Positions 49,055-58,242 of a DNA stretch of 64,000 bases are shown here, one piece after another. The notes beneath the pieces are model-generated. The model saw only the letters and a program-made list of their open reading frames with translations. It was not told the DNA's origin and searched no databases. Position 1 is the first letter of the stretch. Every line of letters begins with the position of its first letter. The stretch lies in assembly GCA_028283625.1 (NCBI GenBank), contig JAPWKG010000030.1:1-64000 (forward strand), written 5' to 3'. Position numbers and translations under genes: made by a program. The DNA comes from Acidobacteriaceae bacterium. GTDB taxonomy: Bacteria; Acidobacteriota; Terriglobia; Terriglobales; Acidobacteriaceae.

Positions 49055-49606
49055 ATGTCACAGCCGCTTCTAGGCACTATTGCATTGTTTGCCGGTAACT
49101 TTGCCCCGAAAGGCTGGGCTCTGTGCGCTGGCCAGCTCCTCCCGATCGCACAAAACGCCGCGCTTTTTAGCATTCTTGGAACGACCTATGGAGGGAATGG
49201 CAGCTCGACCTTTGCCCTTCCCAATCTCTGCGGCCGTGCGCCCGTAGGCGCGGGGCAAAGCACCACCGGCACCTCCTACACGCTTGGGCAGTCCTTCGGA
49301 GCGGAATCCGTTACCCTGAACGCGAATCAGCTCCCCGCCCACATGCATGTCGTCGCTCCGCCTGTTTCCTCCTCGATTGGAACTCAGGTGACCCCCTCCG
49401 GTGGATATCCTGCACAGGTCAACCCTGGCGGCTCTCGCGGCTCCTCTGCGTCCAGCTACAACGCCTACGCTTCTGTCAGTAATGCGCAAGCGGCTGCCTA
49501 CAATACCGCGAGTACCGGAAACAATCTGGCCGTTAGCATTCTGAGCCCAAGTCTTGTTGTGAACTACATCATCGCGCTCCAAGGCATCTTTCCATCGCGC
49601 AACTGA
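49055..49606 (+). CDS. tail-collar domain (microcystin-dependent-type) protein
   Basis: A 183-residue protein of the Tail_Collar / MdpB family, related to the collar region of phage tail fibres but common as stand-alone bacterial genes. The domain is at the N terminus: GTIALFAGNFAPKGWALCAGQLLPIAQNAALFSILGTTYGGNGSSTFALPNL then GRAPVGAGQ. The C-terminal part is low-complexity (Ser, Ala, Tyr, Asn), ending in the family's VVNYIIALQGIFPSRN. It has no signal peptide. No phage genes surround it. It is the first gene of a unit with a hydroxylase and sulfotransferase, so it is the obvious candidate substrate. Its TGA overlaps the next ATG. Confidence 0.88.
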   Translation: MSQPLLGTIALFAGNFAPKGWALCAGQLLPIAQNAALFSILGTTYGGNGSSTFALPNLCGRAPVGAGQSTTGTSYTLGQSFGAESVTLNANQLPAHMHVVAPPVSSSIGTQVTPSGGYPAQVNPGGSRGSSASSYNAYASVSNAQAAAYNTASTGNNLAVSILSPSLVVNYIIALQGIFPSRN

Positions 49607-50418
49607 TGTACCCCGTCATGTATCCCCGTTGGCAAAAACTCCCGCTGTTCTTCCCTCCTGATGCCCTGATCCGCGAGGTTCAGGCAATTCCTGAAGAACA
49701 GTGGGTTCCCCACTTCAACACACAGGATTACGAAGGGCATTGGAGCAGCCTCGCGCTGTGCTCTGCTTCGGGGCGCACCGAAGACATCTTCCCGTCGTCC
49801 TCCAACACCAGCTTCTACAACACACCGCTTTATGCCGAGATGCCAGCGCTGCGTGCTGTTCTTGAGCACTTCCGCTTCCCGCTGAAATCGGTTCGGCTTC
49901 TGCGCCTTCAAAGCGAATCGACGGTACGCGAGCACCGCGACAGGGATCTTTCCCTGCGGGACGGAGAGCTACGCCTGCATGTTCCAATCATGACCAACGA
50001 GCAGGTTGAGTTCATCGTCGCCAACCGGCAGCTTCCTTTGCGCGCAGGAGAGGCGTGGTTTATCGACTTCTCGCAGCCACATCGTATCTACAACAGAAGC
50101 TCCTCGCCGCGCGTGCATCTGGTGATCGACGGCTCGCTGAATGAGTGGGCAAAAGAGCTTCTGGAGCGCGCTCAGCGAGAGGTCGTGACAGAGACCTTCC
50201 CCGCAAGAGGCATCATCGAATTTGAACGCTTCTGCGCAACCGCATGGCAAGATCAAGCGCTGATGGATCGCCTGCGGGGCATAACAGCTCCCCAGGCACT
50301 ACTCGAAGCCGTAACGCGCGAAGGCCAGCTGCGCGGCTTTCACTTTGTCCAGGAGGATGCCGCATCCATCCTTCGGGAAAACCGCGAGGCCTGGAACCTC
50401 CGCACGATGAATCTATGA
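49606..50418 (+). CDS. aspartyl/asparaginyl beta-hydroxylase-like 2OG oxygenase
   Basis: A 270-residue Fe(II)/2-oxoglutarate oxygenase of the AspH-like family. Residues about 85-185 carry the cupin core: VRLLRLQSESTVREHRDRD (first His/Asp ligands), LRLHVPIMTNEQVEFIV (2OG-binding Arg), LRAGEAWFIDFSQPHRIYNRS (second His). The C-terminal 85 residues are helical and unknown. Family members hydroxylate Asp/Asn side chains in proteins, and related enzymes act on small molecules. Start ATG overlaps the upstream stop (TGATG) and its own stop overlaps the sulfotransferase start (ATGA), so all three are translationally coupled. Confidence 0.85.
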   Translation: MYPVMYPRWQKLPLFFPPDALIREVQAIPEEQWVPHFNTQDYEGHWSSLALCSASGRTEDIFPSSSNTSFYNTPLYAEMPALRAVLEHFRFPLKSVRLLRLQSESTVREHRDRDLSLRDGELRLHVPIMTNEQVEFIVANRQLPLRAGEAWFIDFSQPHRIYNRSSSPRVHLVIDGSLNEWAKELLERAQREVVTETFPARGIIEFERFCATAWQDQALMDRLRGITAPQALLEAVTREGQLRGFHFVQEDAASILRENREAWNLRTMNL

Positions 50419-51398
50419 CCATGACAGGCTGGATCCCCTATCAGATCTCCTTGGCTGAGGACCACCCCTCTGTACGCTGGACACAACTTGGGACAACTCG
50501 CCTGCTCGAGCCTTTTTTTGAAGAAACGTTGCAGAAGCAGCTGAACCAGCCGTTCCACCAGCTTTTCGCTCGCCAAACAAGCATGGATGTCTTGCTGGAG
50601 CTTGCTGAGACGCGTTCCTCGCTCCCTCTGCGCGGCATCGTGCTGCACATGTCTCGCTGTGGTTCGACGCTTCTTTCGCAGATGCTTGCCGCGTCGCCGC
50701 GAAACGTTGTCGCCTCGGAGCCCTCTCCGCTGGACGCGATCCTGCGTGCGCAGAGCACGTATCCTCAACTCGATCATGCGACGCACATTCGCTGGATACG
50801 CGCAATGGCTCACGCCCTGGCACAACCGCGCACGGGACAGGAAGACGCGTTCTATCTCAAGCTCGACTGCTGGCACCTGAATCAGCTGGCTCTGCTGCGT
50901 GAAGCCTTCCCCGAAGCTCCGCTGCTCTTCCTCTATCGTGAGCCGCTCGAAGTCATGGTCTCTCACGCCCGCATGCCCGCAGCCTGGAGTATCCCAGGCA
51001 TTCTTCACCCTTTGGCGCTTTCGTTAAAGCATGAGGACTGGGAGCCGCAGCATCTGGAACGGTATGCGGCAAAAGCTTTGGCAAACTTCTGCCGAAACGG
51101 ATTGCTGGCAGCAGAGGCCTGCAACGCACTGCTGGTGAACTTCACGCAACTGCCTGTAGCCGTCTTCGGATCGATAGCGCAGCACTTCTCCCTGCGATTG
51201 GAAGACTACCCCGCCATGCTGGCGCAGTCTCAACGCGATGCCAAGCGCCCCTATCAACCGTTTACCCCGGATAGCGAACAAAAACGCGCAGAGGCATCGC
51301 CTCAAGTGCAAGAGGCCACGGAACTGCTGTTGCGCGAGCTGTACCAGCAGCTCGAGGCAGCGCGTGAGGCACAGGAAAGAACCGTCACCGCTCTCTAG
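50415..51398 (+). CDS. sulfotransferase family protein
   Basis: A 327-residue PAPS-dependent sulfotransferase. The 5'-phosphosulfate loop is MSRCGSTLLSQML (about residues 78-90), and the 3'-phosphate-binding region contains FLYREPLEVMVSHAR near 180. The N-terminal 70 residues are extra and unassigned. Protein, glycan or lipid could be the acceptor. It is coupled to the hydroxylase gene (ATGA) and ends in a four-base convergent overlap with APS kinase, the enzyme that makes its donor. The start is fixed by the ATGA overlap. Confidence 0.85.
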   Translation: MTMTGWIPYQISLAEDHPSVRWTQLGTTRLLEPFFEETLQKQLNQPFHQLFARQTSMDVLLELAETRSSLPLRGIVLHMSRCGSTLLSQMLAASPRNVVASEPSPLDAILRAQSTYPQLDHATHIRWIRAMAHALAQPRTGQEDAFYLKLDCWHLNQLALLREAFPEAPLLFLYREPLEVMVSHARMPAAWSIPGILHPLALSLKHEDWEPQHLERYAAKALANFCRNGLLAAEACNALLVNFTQLPVAVFGSIAQHFSLRLEDYPAMLAQSQRDAKRPYQPFTPDSEQKRAEASPQVQEATELLLRELYQQLEAAREAQERTVTAL

Positions 51399-51925
51399 GG
51401 TCTTTCCAGCCGGGCCAACACCGTACACACGCACTCCTCTACACTCGCCACTCCCGTAAGACAGTGGATCGCGGGCTGCAGTGGAGGTTCGTAAAGGTCG
51501 TCAATCCCCGTCATGTTCTGCAGCTGCCCGGCTCGAGCTCTCCGGTAAAGACCTTTCGGATCGCGCTCTTCGCAAAGAGCCAGAGGGGCATCGACAAAGA
51601 CCTCAAAAAACGGTACCGGTGCTGCCTGCTGCAATGCCGCTCGAACAGCACGAAAAGGGCTGATTGCAGCAACCAGCACACAAGTGCCCTGCTCTGCGGC
51701 TTGGAACGCAATGGCAGCAATCCGGTGTTGATGCTCGACACGGTCTTGCCGGCTAAAGCCAAGATCGCGAGAGTGAGTTTGTCGCAGCTCGTCGCCGTCC
51801 AACAACAAAACCTGCCGCCCGCGCTGTTGCAGAAGCGCAGCTACAGCACGGCTCAAGGTCGTCTTTCCAGAACCGCTTAGACCGGTAAACCACAGGATGA
51901 CACCACCAGCGGTTACTTCTGACAC
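51395..51925 (-). CDS. cysC: adenylyl-sulfate (APS) kinase
   Basis: A 176-residue kinase that phosphorylates APS to PAPS. P-loop GLSGSGKTTLSRAV, then LLDGDELRQTHSRDLGFSRQDRVEHQHRIA, the ISPFRAVRAAL segment and DPKGLYRRARAGQLQNMTGIDDLYEPP, all canonical for CysC. The start is uncertain: GTG 51925 has GAGAG upstream and gives a protein beginning just before the P-loop strand, as usual. No sulfate adenylyltransferase (CysD/CysN) is adjacent, so this appears to be a dedicated PAPS supply for the neighbouring sulfotransferase. The TAG stops of both genes share the palindrome CTAG. Confidence 0.92.
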   Translation of the reverse strand: MSEVTAGGVILWFTGLSGSGKTTLSRAVAALLQQRGRQVLLLDGDELRQTHSRDLGFSRQDRVEHQHRIAAIAFQAAEQGTCVLVAAISPFRAVRAALQQAAPVPFFEVFVDAPLALCEERDPKGLYRRARAGQLQNMTGIDDLYEPPLQPAIHCLTGVASVEECVCTVLARLERP

Positions 51926-51962
51926 GAAAACTCTCTCTCCCACTTCTTCATACCGGAATGAT

Positions 51963-52526
51963 ATGAGTAAGATAAAACTCGCCCTCATGAAGAACCTCAT
52001 GCCAACACGCCGCAAGTTCCTGTCCCTCTCCGTCGCTGCCGCTGGCACCCTCGCTCTTCCACGGACGATTCTTGCCTCCGACAACGAAATCAATAGCCCC
52101 TACTCCAACGCAGCGCTCGGAGCCTATACCCAGGGGCTGATGAACGCGGAGTATCTGACCACGCTTGTTGGCACCAGCTTCACCGTCTTCCTTACAGACG
52201 GCAGCTATTCTTCCATGGTTCTGAGCAAGGTCACGGTAATGGACAATACCCCTGCCTCCACGGAGGGCAAACGCGTTGCCCCTCCGGGCGCGGACCTCAC
52301 CGCATTACGCTCACCACTGCAACCCACATGCTTCACGCTGTGCTTCAACGTTACCGGCCAGAGTTTTGCAGAAGGCACCTATCTGCTCGATAGCGGCCTT
52401 CTGGGCAGAGTCTCCATGTTCCTTTCGCCGAGTACTGCAGGCAAGTGTGTTGCAAGCTTCAGTGCGTTCCCGCAGCGCACGATGAGGCCAGTTACCTCAC
52501 CAGTCAAAGGACGGCTCACGCTCTAA
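51963..52526 (+). CDS. Tat-exported protein with a DUF6916-like domain
   Basis: A 187-residue protein with a twin-arginine signal (TRRKFLSLSVAAAGTLALPRTILA). It has a C-terminal beta domain of about 110 residues: TLVGTSFTVFLTDGSYSSMVLSKV ... CFTLCFNVTGQSFAEGTYLLDSGLLGRVSMFLSPS. This layout is DUF6916-like, a domain of unknown function that I associate with tail-collar gene neighbourhoods. It diverges from cysC with a 37-base gap and converges on the GNAT gene. ATG 51963 has GGAAT upstream; later ATGs at 51987 and 51999 also preserve the signal. Confidence 0.65.
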   Translation: MSKIKLALMKNLMPTRRKFLSLSVAAAGTLALPRTILASDNEINSPYSNAALGAYTQGLMNAEYLTTLVGTSFTVFLTDGSYSSMVLSKVTVMDNTPASTEGKRVAPPGADLTALRSPLQPTCFTLCFNVTGQSFAEGTYLLDSGLLGRVSMFLSPSTAGKCVASFSAFPQRTMRPVTSPVKGRLTL

Positions 52527-52538
52527 CTATCATTCTGC

Positions 52539-53384
52539 TCATCCCATGCGGTTGAACAGAATGTTGTATTCAACCCCTTCTTCGCAATATCCGACGGGGG
52601 AGAGAAAGAGCGGGAATCGCTCCCCTGTCGGCACCATAAGCTCAACGGTGTCCTGAGACAGAAGCGGCTCACGCGGACCATACAGCTTGAGCTCGAAACT
52701 ATCTCCAGCCCGGATCCCCGCATTGCGAAACAGCGCAGAAGCGGTAAGGCTATTTACCTCCACCAGCTTCAACGGTACAGACGGCACGTTCTCAGAACAG
52801 GCAAGCAACGTCTGACCGATCCGCTCCTTGAAGTAACGCGACGACTGACCGGGAAGGTTCGCTTGCGACGCCGCCTCTTCCTCCTCTGGAGTCTCTTTCA
52901 GGCTCTCGCCCTGCTGCCAGCTCATCTCCAGCGAAACACCGTCGCCACGGCTCTGCACAACGAATCCGGCACGTTCATATAGCCGCTTTGCCGGGTTGTT
53001 GTAACGCACGGAAAGGCACAGCGGCAGCTGAGCTACCTCTGCTTGCTGCTTGCAGAACTGCAACAGATCTCCACCGACGCCTTGCCCGCGATATGACTCC
53101 AGCAAGGCAAGATCGACGATCCGCATTTCCGTCGTGGAGCGCGCAAGCATAAGCCGACCTGCGCGCTGATCATCCACCCACACGATGCAGTCCTTAGCAT
53201 TCGGAAAGATCGAAGCATAGCCTTGCTGTTGATTCTGGTACTGCATCTCCAGCAACTCGGTCAACACCTCGGGCTGCAGTTGCAGTGGAGCAAACTCTAA
53301 GGCCTTCACCGCAAAGAAGAGTTCACGCAAAAACACATCATCGTCCGCAACCCTGCTGCGTACTTCAAATCGTACGGAAGCCAC
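52539..53384 (-). CDS. GNAT acetyltransferase fused to a DUF6916-like domain
   Basis: A 281-residue two-domain protein. Residues about 3-155 are a GNAT N-acetyltransferase (acetyl-CoA loop SYRGQGVGGDLL, then LCLSVRYNNPAKRLYERAGF). After an acidic linker, residues about 183-281 form a beta domain (RIGQTLLACSENVPSVPLKLVEV ... FELKLYGPREPLLSQDTVELM ... FPLFLSPVG) with the same strand order as the Tat protein opposite. The GTG start has GAGGAGAGG upstream, 20 bases after the TMTC-type gene stop, so both are likely one operon. Confidence 0.75.
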   Translation of the reverse strand: MASVRFEVRSRVADDDVFLRELFFAVKALEFAPLQLQPEVLTELLEMQYQNQQQGYASIFPNAKDCIVWVDDQRAGRLMLARSTTEMRIVDLALLESYRGQGVGGDLLQFCKQQAEVAQLPLCLSVRYNNPAKRLYERAGFVVQSRGDGVSLEMSWQQGESLKETPEEEEAASQANLPGQSSRYFKERIGQTLLACSENVPSVPLKLVEVNSLTASALFRNAGIRAGDSFELKLYGPREPLLSQDTVELMVPTGERFPLFLSPVGYCEEGVEYNILFNRMG

Positions 53385-53404: not shown

Positions 53405-55705
53405 TTAGTGAGCGTTGGCGCGCTTCTGCGACTCCGACCAGGCAAGATTATTTTTTGCCAACACGTACTCCGGACGGATCGCCAACGCATGCTGCGCCGC
53501 AGCAATCGCCTCATCCCAACGCTGCAAGGACTCATACCCTGCAGCGATATTATTCCAGGCCTCAGCAGAGCGAGGGTCCAGCTGCAACGCCTTGCGGGCC
53601 GCCAGGATAGACTCCTCATACTTTGCCTCTTGATTCAACATCAGAGAGCGATTGATGTACTCCGCTGCTGTAGCAGGAGCCCTCGATGCTTCCAGCTTCG
53701 CTTTCCTGTACCAGGCCAGATTATTCTGAGCGATGGGAAAGCCCGGGCGAAGCTCCAACGCCTTTTGCTCAAAACGAATTGCCTCGCCCCATTGCTGCAT
53801 GGCTCCATAGGCGGCGCCGATGTTGTTGCACGCCTCGGCAGAGTGCGGATCCAGTTGCAAGGCCTTCTGCGCCGACGCCAAAGAGTCAGCGTACAAGCCC
53901 GCGCGCGACTGCGCCAGGGATCGATTGATCCAGAAGGCGGCGTCCTGCTGTACAGGGTGCTGCAGCTCCTCTTCAGCAGCGACATCTCCGGGAAAAGCTG
54001 AGGCCGTTGCAGCGGCGAGCTGATGAGCCTCCTGCATCTCTCCCGTTGCAACATAGGCGCGGATAAGGAGATCACGCTGAAAACTACGCGCAGGATTCAA
54101 CAGCATGGCCTGCTTCAACTGTGCAATCGCTTCCTCTGCCGAACCGTGCTCCAGCAACCAGCGACCATAGTACGCATGGGTTGTGTCATCTTCCGGGGCG
54201 AGCGCGATTGCTCGCTCAAAGTGACGTACCGCCTGCGCAGAGCGAGGAGTGTCTCCGGCATCGGCCAAAGCACCGCAATCAACCCCCAGGTTGATTTCCA
54301 GCGTTGCGTAATTTGGGGTGTAAACCAGCGCTCGCTCAAAGTAATCCAACGCCTCGGCATAGTGGCCGTGCCCCATCAACGTGAGCCCATAGGTCATCAG
54401 ACCGCGTCCGTTGCGAGGGCTCTTCTGCACGTCGTCCAGCCAGAGCGAGTCTTCATCGTGCCACACCACATTGCGTAGATGGGCTCCGTAGGCGTAGCCG
54501 GACAATGCGAGCAGAGAGCACACGATCAGCGCCCTACGCGTAGCCACTTGTGCAGCACAATGCTGCCACAGCTTCCAGCCGCACCAGAGCACCGCCAGCA
54601 TGAGCCCGGGGAAGGAGAAAAACATGCGATGGTCGTTTTCCACCTCGCTCAAGGCATAAAGCGAAGTAGGCAGTTGTGTCAGCACAAACCACAACAGCCC
54701 ATAACTTACCGGTCGCCAGCTCTCCTTCTTCCAACACCATGCGATCGCCGCAAACAATGCGAGAAGAAAGACCAGACCAAGCTGCACCGCTGGATCGCTC
54801 GCCGATGATGCCTTCAGGTCCGTATCCACGTTGAGGTGGAGCGGCAGCAACAACTCGCCAACGTAGCGCGCCCACACGAGAGGCTGCGTGACGCGATACG
54901 ACCAAGGATCAAGGATAGAGGGCGCGAAACTCTTCGGCGTCATCGCGCTTTGCAGCTTCATCAGCGCTGCCGTTGTGAGCAGAGACGGCAATGCAGACAA
55001 GGCACTCCGCTTCCAGCGAGCAGAGGCAGGAAGCATCGCGGCCTCCCCAAAGAAGTACTCCCAGAAAAGCAGCAGCAGCGGGAAAACAGCGGCTGGAGGC
55101 TTGGAAAGCAACGCAGCAATCAAAGGAAGAAGGTACACACCATAGCGGCGCTGCTTCGGCCAGCCCACCCACAGACACAAAGCGGCAACGCAGCCAAGCG
55201 TACAGTACAGATCTCCGCGCTGAATAACGTAGTTGACCGTCTCCGCCATTGCAGGATGCAGTCCAAACCACGCAGCCCCCAGCAGCGCTGGCCAGAAATG
55301 ATCCACGCCGTTCTGCGCACGGTCCATCGTCTGCCGGAAAAGCTGCAGCAGGAGAAGCATCAGGAGAAGAAAACAGATCATGGTTCCGAGATGGAACCAG
55401 AACAGCTTGTAACCATGGCCTAAGGCATAGTCCAGCGCTAACGATGCGGAGACCAGCGGGCGATAGGTCCGATTAGCTGGATAAATGCTGAAGGTGGAGG
55501 TATCCGTAAAAAAGCGGGGAAGGTTGTGAAGACTCCTGATTGCGGGGTTTTCCAACACCGTGTGGTAGTCATCAAAATGAAACGAATTGCCGAAAGAATT
55601 GCTGTACGTTGCAAGCACCAAGGCAAGCAACAAAACAACGGCAGGCGTCCTTCCCCGGACAGCGGCAGGCAAGAACGGCGAAGCGCTGTTTTTCTCCTTA
55701 GTCAT
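53405..55705 (-). CDS. TMTC-type membrane glycosyltransferase with TPR domain
   Basis: A protein of 766 residues. The N-terminal ~400 residues are a multi-spanning GT-C-like domain with the family's DD motif (FHFDDYHTVLENPAIRSL), YRPLVSASLALDYALG, GLHPAMAETVNYVIQRGDL and LSKPPAAVFPLLLLFWEY. These mirror eukaryotic TMTC O-mannosyltransferases and their bacterial relatives. The C-terminal ~330 residues are TPRs, including two nearly identical units (SLASAQKALQLDPHSAEACNNIGAAYGAMQQWGEAI and SILAARKALQLDPRSAEAWNNIAAGYESLQRWDEAI) that probably capture acceptor protein. It diverges from the collagen-like gene. Alternative starts GTG 55714 and TTG 55723 exist; none has a clear ribosome site. Confidence 0.82.
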   Translation of the reverse strand: MTKEKNSASPFLPAAVRGRTPAVVLLLALVLATYSNSFGNSFHFDDYHTVLENPAIRSLHNLPRFFTDTSTFSIYPANRTYRPLVSASLALDYALGHGYKLFWFHLGTMICFLLLMLLLLQLFRQTMDRAQNGVDHFWPALLGAAWFGLHPAMAETVNYVIQRGDLYCTLGCVAALCLWVGWPKQRRYGVYLLPLIAALLSKPPAAVFPLLLLFWEYFFGEAAMLPASARWKRSALSALPSLLTTAALMKLQSAMTPKSFAPSILDPWSYRVTQPLVWARYVGELLLPLHLNVDTDLKASSASDPAVQLGLVFLLALFAAIAWCWKKESWRPVSYGLLWFVLTQLPTSLYALSEVENDHRMFFSFPGLMLAVLWCGWKLWQHCAAQVATRRALIVCSLLALSGYAYGAHLRNVVWHDEDSLWLDDVQKSPRNGRGLMTYGLTLMGHGHYAEALDYFERALVYTPNYATLEINLGVDCGALADAGDTPRSAQAVRHFERAIALAPEDDTTHAYYGRWLLEHGSAEEAIAQLKQAMLLNPARSFQRDLLIRAYVATGEMQEAHQLAAATASAFPGDVAAEEELQHPVQQDAAFWINRSLAQSRAGLYADSLASAQKALQLDPHSAEACNNIGAAYGAMQQWGEAIRFEQKALELRPGFPIAQNNLAWYRKAKLEASRAPATAAEYINRSLMLNQEAKYEESILAARKALQLDPRSAEAWNNIAAGYESLQRWDEAIAAAQHALAIRPEYVLAKNNLAWSESQKRANAH

Positions 55706-55730
55706 CTGCGTCACGGTTACCAAAACTATT

Positions 55731-55759: not shown

Positions 55760-55929
55760 ACCCCCGTAACCAAAAGGTACTTTTTGACGCCAGCATAGCC
55801 GATCGAGAGCCATGCGTCGTGCATTGTTTCTACCTTTCATAAGAACTTCTTCCACCTGCCTTACTACCCAGTTTTTTTGAGCACGCTGATCGAGTTTTTG
55901 CGATGCGGCTATTGTCCTTGAGGAGTCCC
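55760..55929 (+). other. long untranslated leader of the collagen-like gene
   Basis: Roughly 160 bases between the predicted transcription start and the GTG start hold no gene. They contain a T/C-rich tract, a second TTGACG-like sequence and an imperfect palindrome around GTAACCAAAAGGTAC near 55766. A leader of this length is unusual here, where many genes look leaderless, and could carry post-transcriptional control. Confidence 0.35.
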
Positions 55930-57675
55930 GTGTTCCCTATCCGCTTACTTCAGCGAAAACTGACTGGCCTGTTCGCCCTTCAGCTTGCTTGCTTCGCCCT
56001 TCTGCTTTCCGCAACGAACTCAGCGCATGCAGCCGATCTGCCCGTTGCACAGGACGCACACGTTAGCTCTTCGAGAAGCAGCGCCAACTTCGGCTATATG
56101 TCGAACCTGTATGTCGGTAACGGCAACACGGCGCTTCTGCAGTTCGATCTCTCTTCTCTGCCTCCGGGCATCACGGCTTCGCAGATCTCTCATGCGGCCG
56201 TCACGCTGTTCGTGAACCGGATTCTTTCCCCGGGAGCGATCACGGTTGCCCCGGTGACTTCGGCCTGGACGGAAAGCGCCGTCACCTATGCGACGCAGCC
56301 GTCGCTCGGATCAGCGATCGTGTCGTTCACTCCAGGGGCCTCAGGCGTGTATGTCACCATCGACATCACCTCGTTGCTTCAGGGATGGATCAGCAATCCC
56401 ACGACAAACTTCGGACTCGCCCTGACCTCTTCCGGAGGCGAATATCTCTTCGACTCCAAGGAAAACGACCAGACGGGTCATGCGGCAGGCGTTAGCGTCA
56501 CCGTGGTAAGCATGGGTGCAACGGGAGCAACCGGAGCAACAGGAGCCCAGGGCCCACAAGGCATTCCCGGTGTAGCTGGCCCACAAGGACTAGCGGGCCC
56601 CGCAGGAGCGGCCGGCACCGCAGGAGCACAAGGAATTCAAGGCCCGATCGGTCCGGTAGGTGCTACCGGTGCTACCGGTGCCGCAGGGGCAGCTGGACCG
56701 ACAGGCGCAACGGGAGCTCCGGGAGCCAAGGGAGACGTCGGGCCGCAGGGAGCTCAGGGAATCCAGGGTATTCAGGGTGTTACAGGAGCTGTGGGTGCCA
56801 CCGGAGCAGCCGGGGCAGCTGGACCGACTGGAGCAACAGGGGCAGCTGGAGCAACAGGAGCCGCGGGAGCAACAGGAGCAGCTGGAGCCACAGGAGCACA
56901 AGGAATTCAAGGCGCTACAGGCCCAACAGGAGCCAAAGGAAGCACCGGCCCGCAGGGTATCCAGGGCATTCAGGGTGTTACAGGAGCTGTGGGTGCCACC
57001 GGAACAGCAGGGGTAGCTGGACCAGCTGGAGCCGCTGGGGCCACGGGACCACAAGGGGTCCAGGGCATTCAGGGAACGACCGGGGCAATCGGCGCTACAG
57101 GCAGCACTGGAGTAACCGGTACGACTGGAGCTACAGGTATCCAAGGAATACAGGGCATTCAGGGCGCTACAGGCGCAACTGGAGCTACGGGAGCCACAGG
57201 TGCGGCCGGCGCAGGCAGCGTAAGCTCAAACGGCTTATTGCAGGTGTATGACTCACTCGTCAATCCTGGAAGCAGCCCGTACTACATCGGTACAACCGCA
57301 GCCTCAAACGGCAATGGCTTTTCCCCAGATTTCCTTACGGTGGCTCCCTTCGGCTGCACGCTGAGCGGCTTCCACGTGCAGGGGACAACGATCTATGCCG
57401 GCGCAGCAGAGACACTCAAAGTTGAAGTCTTCAAGAACCCCACGATTACAACCACCGTCTCAGCAACAACAACCAGCTACAGCCTCACGCCCCCATCTTC
57501 AGCAATTTTGAGCTGTACGCTCAATGTTCCCGCAGCCAACAATTCGGCGGCTTCATGCTCGTCCTCCAGCACGGCTACCCTAAACGCGGGCGATACGTTC
57601 TATGTCTATGGCACAGAATCCGACGCGTCGAATAGTGCGTACTTTAAATATGCGGTCAGCATAAGCTGCCAGTAG
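55930..57675 (+). CDS. secreted collagen-like protein with DNRLRE-type domain
   Basis: A 581-residue exported protein. After a signal peptide (ending SAHA) comes a beta-sandwich of the DNRLRE/CBM-like type (about 35-190: [25 protein letters not shown] ... [15 protein letters not shown]). Next is a collagen-like rod of 78 uninterrupted Gly-X-Y triplets rich in GAT, GPT, GIQ and GPQ, then a C-terminal beta domain of about 150 residues with Cys-containing strands, perhaps the trimerisation head. Thr often occupies the Y position, where bacterial collagens such as BclA are O-glycosylated. GTG 55930 is chosen because TTGAGGAG precedes it; ATG 55903 lacks a site. Confidence 0.87.
56515..57216 (+). 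repeat. collagen triplet repeat region
   Basis: A 702-base tract encoding 78 consecutive Gly-X-Y triplets, with nine-base periodicity and longer duplicated blocks (for example the [15 protein letters not shown] unit occurs twice, near 56761 and 56957). It is prone to length variation by slippage or recombination. Confidence 0.92.
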
Positions 57676-57696
57676 TTTGTGGACAGGAAACGGTTG

Positions 57697-58242
57697 ATGC
57701 AGAAGCAACGGACATACGTTCCACTCCTGATCGGGCTGCTTGCGAGCACCATGACAGCGCAAACCGCAGGCGCGCAGCGGCAACGAGGAACCGCAGGCAA
57801 AGCGGTTGCATTGACAACCGCCTCCTGCCCCATCGTTGCCGACGGCGATCTGGTGACGTTTTCCTGGAACCCTGTGTTTGAACACGCGTCTTCCGTAACC
57901 GGCGTCCAGAGTTTCGAGCTGCAGTTTGCCCGGGAGCAGGACAAAGCGATCACCTCCCGAACGGGAGCACCACTCATCCTGCTCGCCGCTCCACGCGTTC
58001 ACGGCGAAGTGCCCAGCGCACGGAACAAAGAAATCGAGCCAGGAACAAACGGCGTTTACGATCTTCGGTTCCATCTGCATCTGCATGAGCTTGCTGCCGG
58101 CGAGTACCGCTTGGTCAAGGCCACAGCGATGGCAAAAACGGATGGCACATTCTCTCCGGACGAAGCGACCATGACCAATTCGCCCATGCAATTGCCGTAC
58201 TGCCTGACGATTGCGGGCTCAGCGGCAGGAACGAATCGCTAG
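57697..58242 (+). CDS. exported protein of unknown function
   Basis: A 181-residue protein with a Sec signal peptide (YVPLLIGLLASTMTAQTAGA). The mature part is predicted beta-rich (GDLVTFSWNPVF, VQSFELQFAREQ, YDLRFHLHLHELAAGEYRLVKATA) and has two cysteines (SCPIVAD, PYCLTI) that could pair. It lies 21 bases after the collagen-like gene, with AGGAAACGG before ATG 57697. It may be an accessory or cap protein of the collagen fibre, but this is only contextual. Confidence 0.65.
   Translation: MQKQRTYVPLLIGLLASTMTAQTAGAQRQRGTAGKAVALTTASCPIVADGDLVTFSWNPVFEHASSVTGVQSFELQFAREQDKAITSRTGAPLILLAAPRVHGEVPSARNKEIEPGTNGVYDLRFHLHLHELAAGEYRLVKATAMAKTDGTFSPDEATMTNSPMQLPYCLTIAGSAAGTNR

Follow-up and report, generated by a model that had tools for sequence, protein, structure and literature searches.

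Protein hydroxylation and sulfation are each represented by well-described enzymes: AspH hydroxylates Asp and Asn at internal residues of EGF-like domains, and the sulfotransferase TPST1 acts on Tyr and has a catalytic Glu. Free amino acids are the substrates of the L-proline hydroxylases, and for one of these, proline 3-hydroxylase (P3H), R95, R97 and R122 are assigned to the substrate carboxylate, R168 and H124 to 2-oxoglutarate (2OG), and E112 to the side of the amine, assignments that come from docking into a model together with partial mutagenesis (PMC9968057). Hydroxylation guided by a C-terminal motif is described, in excerpted text, for the 2OG-dependent HEXXH enzymes PflC and PosC, which beta-hydroxylate a peptide Gln side-chain amide; they differ from the hydroxylase considered here in that they belong by name to another enzyme class, cleave the tail and act on small precursors of ribosomally synthesized and post-translationally modified peptides (RiPPs), and the excerpts do not mention a sulfotransferase (PMC12636437). 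Here we analyze a nine-gene block in positions 1 to 64,000 of contig JAPWKG010000030.1 (assembly GCA_028283625.1) of an Acidobacteriaceae bacterium, this whole 64,000-nucleotide stretch being referred to as the window. At its centre are genes for a collar-domain protein (COL), a predicted hydroxylase (HYD) and a sulfotransferase (SULT), followed by a gene for a kinase of adenosine 5'-phosphosulfate (APS) that could supply 3'-phosphoadenosine 5'-phosphosulfate (PAPS):

49055-49606, plus strand: COL, standalone collar protein of 183 aa, candidate substrate (PF07484 Collar, 1.1e-26; PHROGs tail families)
49601-49603, plus strand: codon of Asn183, last residue of COL (...GIFPSRN) and proposed modification site (a C-terminal Asn tracks HYD)
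49606-50418, plus strand: HYD, predicted Fe(II)/2OG hydroxylase of 270 aa (PF05118, 6.4e-17; AlphaFold2 model; Foldseek)
50206-50379, plus strand: Nif11-like helical tail of HYD, approximately residues 201-258 (HYD profile against the Nif11 protein 9zn4; helices in the model)
50415-51398, plus strand: SULT, sulfotransferase of 327 aa (PF13469, 7.1e-9; conserved PAPS loop RCGST and E101)
51395-51943, minus strand: CysC-like APS kinase, possible PAPS supply (PF01583, 1.7e-53)

The overlaps by which a first-pass annotation of this DNA had joined the first three genes are present, TGATG at 49604-49608 between COL and HYD and ATGA at 50415-50418 between HYD and SULT. The APS kinase gene, which it had also placed at the end of SULT, does share its last bases (51395-51398 only), but lies tail to tail on the opposite strand and is thus not part of the SULT transcript. 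Its ORF extends to 52093, with the GTG at 51943 being one likely start, and its product passes the NCBIfam TIGR00455 (apsK) cut-off (194.8 versus 138.7 bits). We propose, with slightly more doubt than belief, that these genes encode a system that modifies the C-terminus of COL, in which HYD would hydroxylate the C-terminal Asn and SULT would sulfate the new hydroxyl. The sequences show that the genes are linked, in places fused and co-occurring, that catalytic residues are kept and that a C-terminal Asn correlates with HYD; from this we infer which protein is the substrate, which residue is the site, in what order the steps run, that the product is sulfated and what the Nif11-like domain does. 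HYD would use O2 and 2OG to hydroxylate the Asn, most simply at the beta carbon, its residues R97 and R123 gripping the C-terminal carboxylate of COL; SULT would then move sulfate from PAPS onto the hydroxyl, the APS kinase would raise PAPS, and the Nif11-like domain may dock COL or pass it between the two enzymes.

The order of the block (COL, HYD, SULT, APS kinase, a DUF6916 protein, a GNAT-DUF6916 fusion, a TPR protein, a collagen-like protein and a small protein, P58) is kept in two genomes of the same genus (L016 and L019), whose individual proteins are approximately 36-65% identical to those of the window; the APS kinase of the second is recognised by Pfam. In L017, genes for HYD, SULT, DUF6916, the GNAT-DUF6916 fusion and the collagen-like protein occupy a 7.4-kb contig, and in L018 HYD and SULT occur without the other block genes. 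Among 41 relatives, strong HYD and SULT matches fall in the same five, three more have a weak HYD match only (E 2e-9 to 1e-4), and COL is present in 11, including all five with strong HYD. Among 399 genomes of the class, strong HYD and strong SULT again occur in the same nine, with the genes side by side; SULT matches were found in 15 genomes (six of them weak) and one further weak HYD match in G314. A scan of named genomes identified 34 HYD loci from Acidobacteria, Myxococcales, Verrucomicrobia, Betaproteobacteria, Nevskia, Lysobacterales, Anaerolineae, Scalindua, SAR324 and Bacteroidetes, and in the stretches fetched around them, some of which are short contigs, SULT adjoins HYD at 27, while COL is present at 15, GNAT at 13 and an APS kinase at one. 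HYD and SULT share one reading frame in 12 ORFs, which represent eight distinct genomes (four ORFs are duplicates and one is cut by a contig end); two of these fusions were scanned, and both domains exceed the Pfam cut-offs in L098, with the sulfotransferase reaching only E 0.051 in L090. GNAT and HYD share a frame at three of the 34 loci, all in Verrucomicrobia (by Pfam in L085). The recurrent linkage across genome draws and named loci led us to reject chance adjacency. Taken together, these genes form a real conserved system, and HYD and SULT are associated in several phyla; the first-pass annotation had held that an absence of co-occurrence in other genomes would speak against its proposal, and the opposite was found. 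As an APS kinase was seen in one stretch with HYD and SULT in the window and in L016, L019, L066, L109 and L308, PAPS supply appears to be a recurrent but minority feature. Two further observations concern these loci: a second SULT homologue lies near the HYD-SULT fusion in L093 (3572-4507) and L090 (6440-7390), and a family of 182-aa ORFs, for which a Pfam scan gave no match, occurs at six acidobacterial HYD loci (L097, 6099-6647 on the minus strand, and five others, at least two being duplicates).

COL is the most likely partner of HYD and SULT. Counting a genome as HYD-positive if it has a strong match to the HYD profile or a locus from the HYD scan, and noting that each draw contains by construction a HYD-positive genome at its centre (G430 and G441 in their own draws), COL is found in all nine HYD-positive genomes of the class versus 49 of the other 390 (58/399 overall). 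In 127 Myxococcales, where 37 have some HYD match and 24 a strong one, a collar match is present in 23 of the 24 (the exception being G521) versus 47 of 103 others (70/127 overall), and in 200 Burkholderiales in four of five (the exception being G688) versus 39 of 195 (43/200 overall). Of 20 genomes of named HYD loci searched for COL, 19 contain it. Local COL is missing from 19 of the named loci, and in the 17 of these whose genomes were searched (all but L079 and L084) COL was found elsewhere in 16. Viral contigs gave 11 loci, at no more than 30% identity, and HYD matches in phage records are limited to two, both from one phage and covering 29% of the query. Plasmid records with HYD matches number 26, and of the three examined, from Pseudoalteromonas, Asticcacaulis and Diaphorobacter, only the first has an adjoining COL. 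On the Asticcacaulis plasmid (L325, 3817-8767) a TonB receptor gene is followed by a sulfotransferase, an AspH-like hydroxylase, another sulfotransferase and a HYD/SULT-like frame, with no collar protein in this stretch. On that of Diaphorobacter (L326, 6920-8812) an approximately 630-aa protein annotated as "sulfotransferase" holds a HYD-like domain and stands head to head with a protein bearing an IPTL-CTERM sorting domain. As such pairs occur in these other settings, the pairing of PF05118 enzymes with sulfotransferases may extend beyond COL.

The residue of COL that best tracks HYD is the last one. Among fetched full-length COLs, 77 of 82 from HYD-positive genomes end in Asn versus 24 of 95 from HYD-negative genomes, and every such COL ends in Asn in 51 of 55 HYD-positive versus 3 of 50 HYD-negative genomes (49/56 versus 5/58 with short rows included). 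All 55 HYD-positive genomes and 10 of the 50 HYD-negative ones have at least one COL whose end is exactly PSRN. Eleven genomes with weak or other-subfamily HYD matches were kept apart and resemble the HYD-negative set, with a PSRN COL in two and an Asn-ending COL in three. The contrast persists within lineages: genomes with Asn at the end of every COL number 11 of 12 HYD-positive versus 0 of 34 HYD-negative among acidobacteria, and 26 of 26 versus 3 of 16 among Myxococcota; of the other 17 HYD-positive genomes, which have no HYD-negative counterpart in the set, 14 are all-Asn. In an alignment with 57 HYD-positive entries, two genomes being present twice (later counts use 55), Asn at the last position gave the strongest of 466 residue tests (4.6e-22, the runner-up being 6.0e-11), and the GIFPSR preceding it is largely common to COLs with and without HYD. 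As a guard against shared descent, independent pairs were counted on a tree built without the last four COL residues: of 8 pairs, 5.9 join Asn with HYD and 0.0 run counter to this (median p 0.031). Median p values for the other nine top columns were 0.25 to 1, such that only the last Asn held among the ten checked. These counts cover fetched COLs, leaving aside weaker or longer collar matches and the COLs of some HYD-negative genomes, and 17 of 211 were dropped as not full length: seven HYD-positive (four ending in Asn, namely three Nevskia PSRN and one fragment, and three not, from G432, G431 and G442), nine HYD-negative (two ending in Asn) and one from the genomes kept apart. The HYD-positive genomes come partly from the HYD scan and are not an even draw, and the HYD-negative set includes incomplete assemblies.

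Burkholderiales and a plasmid locus, both examined once the correlation had been noticed, bear on it as well. Each of the four HYD-positive Burkholderiales with usable COLs, one of which (G441) also belonged to the first set, has a COL with Arg-Asn at its end, and in three this end is PSRN. In Pseudoalteromonas NC201, HYD, GNAT and three COLs ending in PSRN, PPRN and PPRN lie within 5 kb. Counted by COL, with this locus pooled with the Burkholderiales, a choice made after its result was seen, 7 of 10 (three from Pseudoalteromonas) versus 12 of 48 end in Asn (p 0.01). As judged from these sequences, a C-terminal Asn on COL is almost a requirement for HYD, and its occurrence is tied to HYD and not to SULT; we regard the tree-corrected association as supportive, not overwhelming.

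Several results weigh against the proposal that this Asn is hydroxylated and then sulfated. The tree-corrected test reaches only p ~0.03 on eight pairs, and with single-COL genomes only, 4.9 of 5 pairs agree (p 0.06). At least one Asn-ending COL occurs in 18 of 50 HYD-negative genomes, and since this residue is found without HYD it is no proof of modification. In HYD-negative Burkholderiales, for which full-length COLs came from 19 of the 39 genomes with a collar match, an Asn-ending COL is present in 11 of 19 and PSRN in 9 of 19, two of the three new HYD-positive genomes also carry COLs with another final residue, and the genome-level comparison, with Pseudoalteromonas counted, is not significant (4/4 versus 11/19, p 0.26). 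SULT was not found in the stretches fetched at 7 of the 34 named HYD loci, nor in the 14.5 kb fetched from Pseudoalteromonas NC201, and an APS kinase is present at only one of the 34. A profile search of solved structures gave no significant relative of SULT with a known substrate, and the predicted structure of COL (predicted local distance difference test, pLDDT, 49.8) is too poor to show whether its C-terminus is accessible.

The features of HYD are consistent with an enzyme acting on the last residue of a protein. HYD exceeds the PF05118 cut-off (62.3 versus 22.6 bits) and its AlphaFold2 model has a pLDDT of 93.0. The first-pass annotation called it an AspH-like oxygenase, and AspH indeed belongs to the same Pfam family and fold, but the nearest solved relatives are L-proline hydroxylases: its profile matches L-proline cis-4-hydroxylase (4p7w/4p7x) at 1.2e-21 and P3H (1e5r) at 2.4e-7, and Foldseek ranks 4p7x (4.6e-13) and 1e5r (2.0e-9) ahead of AspH (1.7e-8). 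The iron site H110-x-D112...H159 and the 2OG residue R169 are present in 35 of 35 HYDs, as is H125. Like the L-proline hydroxylases, which share the HxD...H iron site and the 2OG Arg, HYD has two carboxylate-assigned arginines, R97 and R123, invariant in 35 of 35 and aligned with R95 and R122 of P3H (alignment to 4p7w/1e5r), with the position corresponding to the third, R97 of P3H, not being Arg. Unlike P3H, HYD has no amine-facing Glu and carries a Nif11-like tail: the register of E112 is ambiguous between position 114, which varies (N10, G6, A5, D4, E4, R3 and others; n=35), and position 115, which is Leu in 31 of 35. As HYD would thus grip an alpha-carboxylate but not an alpha-amine, it appears suited to the last residue of a protein. 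It further differs from the L-proline hydroxylases in being linked or fused to a sulfotransferase and co-occurring with COL, and from AspH in being nearer to enzymes of free amino acids and in its proposed site, a C-terminal Asn. The equivalent arginine of AspH serves a side-chain carboxylate, so an Asp elsewhere may also be the target.

SULT exceeds the PF13469 cut-off (36.7 versus 27 bits), and all 24 sequences compared share its PAPS loop RCGST and E101. TPST1 (5wrj) likewise has a PAPS loop, and E101 aligns with its catalytic Glu, the similarity being below significance (E 0.38). Unlike TPST1, with its Tyr acceptor, SULT would act on a hydroxylated C-terminal residue, and it is mainly because SULT is linked and fused to HYD that it would be expected to use the HYD product. 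A helical Nif11-like domain lies between the two enzymes and takes several forms. In the window it is the tail of HYD, in the fusions it links HYD to SULT, and Myxococcota and others encode it as a small ORF of its own, which in Verrucomicrobia stands upstream of SULT and on the strand opposite to HYD. The HYD profile matches the solved Nif11 protein 9zn4 (E 4.7e-4) and Pfam Nif11 is recognised in 3 of 11 relatives, with no Pfam Nif11 match in the HYD tail of the window. Of four separate Nif11-like ORFs scanned with Pfam, those of L088 and L107 pass the cut-off, that of L099 is just short and that of L091 is weak. As in Nif11-type RiPP systems, the domain stands beside tailoring enzymes. Unlike in those systems, it can be part of an enzyme, and as the separate ORFs listed stop directly after the domain they contain no core peptide, which led us to reject a RiPP precursor role for the Nif11-like part.

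The alternative closest to our proposal is that HYD and SULT modify another residue of COL and that the C-terminal Asn is a mere recognition tag for HYD. The presence of GIFPSR largely irrespective of HYD, with the last residue as the strongest HYD-linked change, fits a tag equally well, and the Nif11-like domain could serve as a docking module. However, the other nine top columns all fail to track HYD once the tree is taken into account (a test made on ten columns), and HYD retains the carboxylate-assigned arginines, which would be superfluous for an internal residue unless it were Asp or Glu; we consider a tag unlikely. We also regard as improbable that the enzymes produce a small molecule or act on a free amino acid, with COL as a passenger of the island. 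The closest solved relatives of HYD do act on free L-proline or L-pipecolate, according to the structure titles, and HYD weakly matches TIGR04531, a putative nonproteinogenic amino acid hydroxylase (2.9e-8; 33 bits versus a cut-off of 300). Against this, neighbourhood clustering, in which the majority of recurring ORF families (many being shadow frames) stayed unassigned, recognised no small-molecule biosynthesis family that recurs across lineages; almost every HYD genome has COL, adjacent or not, and a passenger role would not account for its C-terminus.

Two other protein targets have been weighed. The first-pass annotation placed hydroxylation and sulfation, on tyrosines or new hydroxyls, in the low-complexity Ser/Tyr/Asn region of COL. 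That COL is the linked protein, and that E101 of SULT falls on the Glu of TPST1 in the non-significant alignment above, would favour this version, but the region varies in length and sequence and has no invariant Tyr in 25 aligned COLs, and we reject it as the target, leaving sulfation there very unlikely. The idea of a modification system thus survives in the conserved HYD-SULT linkage, with COL as the likeliest partner; the earlier choice of region was probably wrong and that of protein well guessed. The collagen-like protein of the block, as a substrate for prolyl hydroxylation and sulfation of its repeats, would suit the relationship of HYD to proline hydroxylases, and collagen-like ORFs were clustered at 13 of 39 HYD loci, a number inflated by low-complexity matches and duplicates. 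In the window protein, however, just 2 of the 78 GXY triplets have Pro at Y. No collagen-like ORF was clustered at the seven Myxococcota HYD loci, and such genes also adjoin COL where no strong HYD is present (L040, L044 and L045). These three results led us to reject the collagen-like protein as the target, a role we judge most improbable. Returning to COL and its C-terminal Asn, a broader form of our proposal, in which an enzyme pair, in some cases joined in a single chain, carries out two-step hydroxylation and O-sulfation of this residue in several phyla, the Nif11-like domain is a substrate carrier and GNAT belongs to the same pathway, is possible though we hold it with considerable doubt.

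The remaining genes of the block extend downstream of the APS kinase:

51999-52526, plus strand: DUF6916 protein with a twin-Arg N-terminus (twin-arginine translocation signal by eye; PF21880, 6.6e-7)
52539-53384, minus strand: GNAT acetyltransferase-DUF6916 fusion (PF13508, 3.9e-11; PF21880, 3.4e-13)
53405-55723, minus strand: TPR protein whose N-terminal part is long and hydrophobic, conserved in the block (TPR matches; syntenic in L016 and L019)
55903-57675, plus strand: collagen-like protein with a CBM96/DNRLRE domain (PF01391, 1.6e-35; PF24517, 2e-21; syntenic)
57679-58242, plus strand: P58, small conserved protein 3' of the collagen-like gene (syntenic in L016 and L019)

Pfam confirms the DUF6916 protein and GNAT-DUF6916 fusion of the first-pass annotation, the fusion being on the minus strand. 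The region 51897-53384 thus contains two adjacent DUF6916 copies, one with a twin-Arg start and the other fused to GNAT. The hydrophobic N-terminus of the TPR protein resembles TMTC-type O-mannosyltransferases; in the neighbouring collagen-like protein Thr occupies 30 of 78 Y positions, which would fit O-glycosylation. A Pfam scan of P58 gave no match. In L040, L044 and L045, which have no strong HYD, genes for GNAT, the collagen-like protein, the TPR protein and (in L040) P58 can adjoin the collar gene, and as they stand beside COL without strong HYD these four look like older partners of COL. At the three-copy COL loci L041-L043 only DUF6916 or GNAT-DUF6916 matches were found, approximately 6 kb away. 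No phage structural genes were recognised among the nine other proteins around COL scanned with Pfam, in agreement with the earlier view that the locus is not a prophage remnant.

A full-text literature search, whose queries were partly confounded, returned no account of this system or of the hydroxylation and subsequent sulfation of a C-terminal protein residue and no function for standalone collar-domain proteins, which are common in the groups searched. If our proposal is true, these proteins would carry a specific mark that is sharply predicted, as one residue, two mass shifts and two genes, and Nif11-like domains would gain a role outside peptide natural products. Experimental confirmation would establish a novel type of protein modification.

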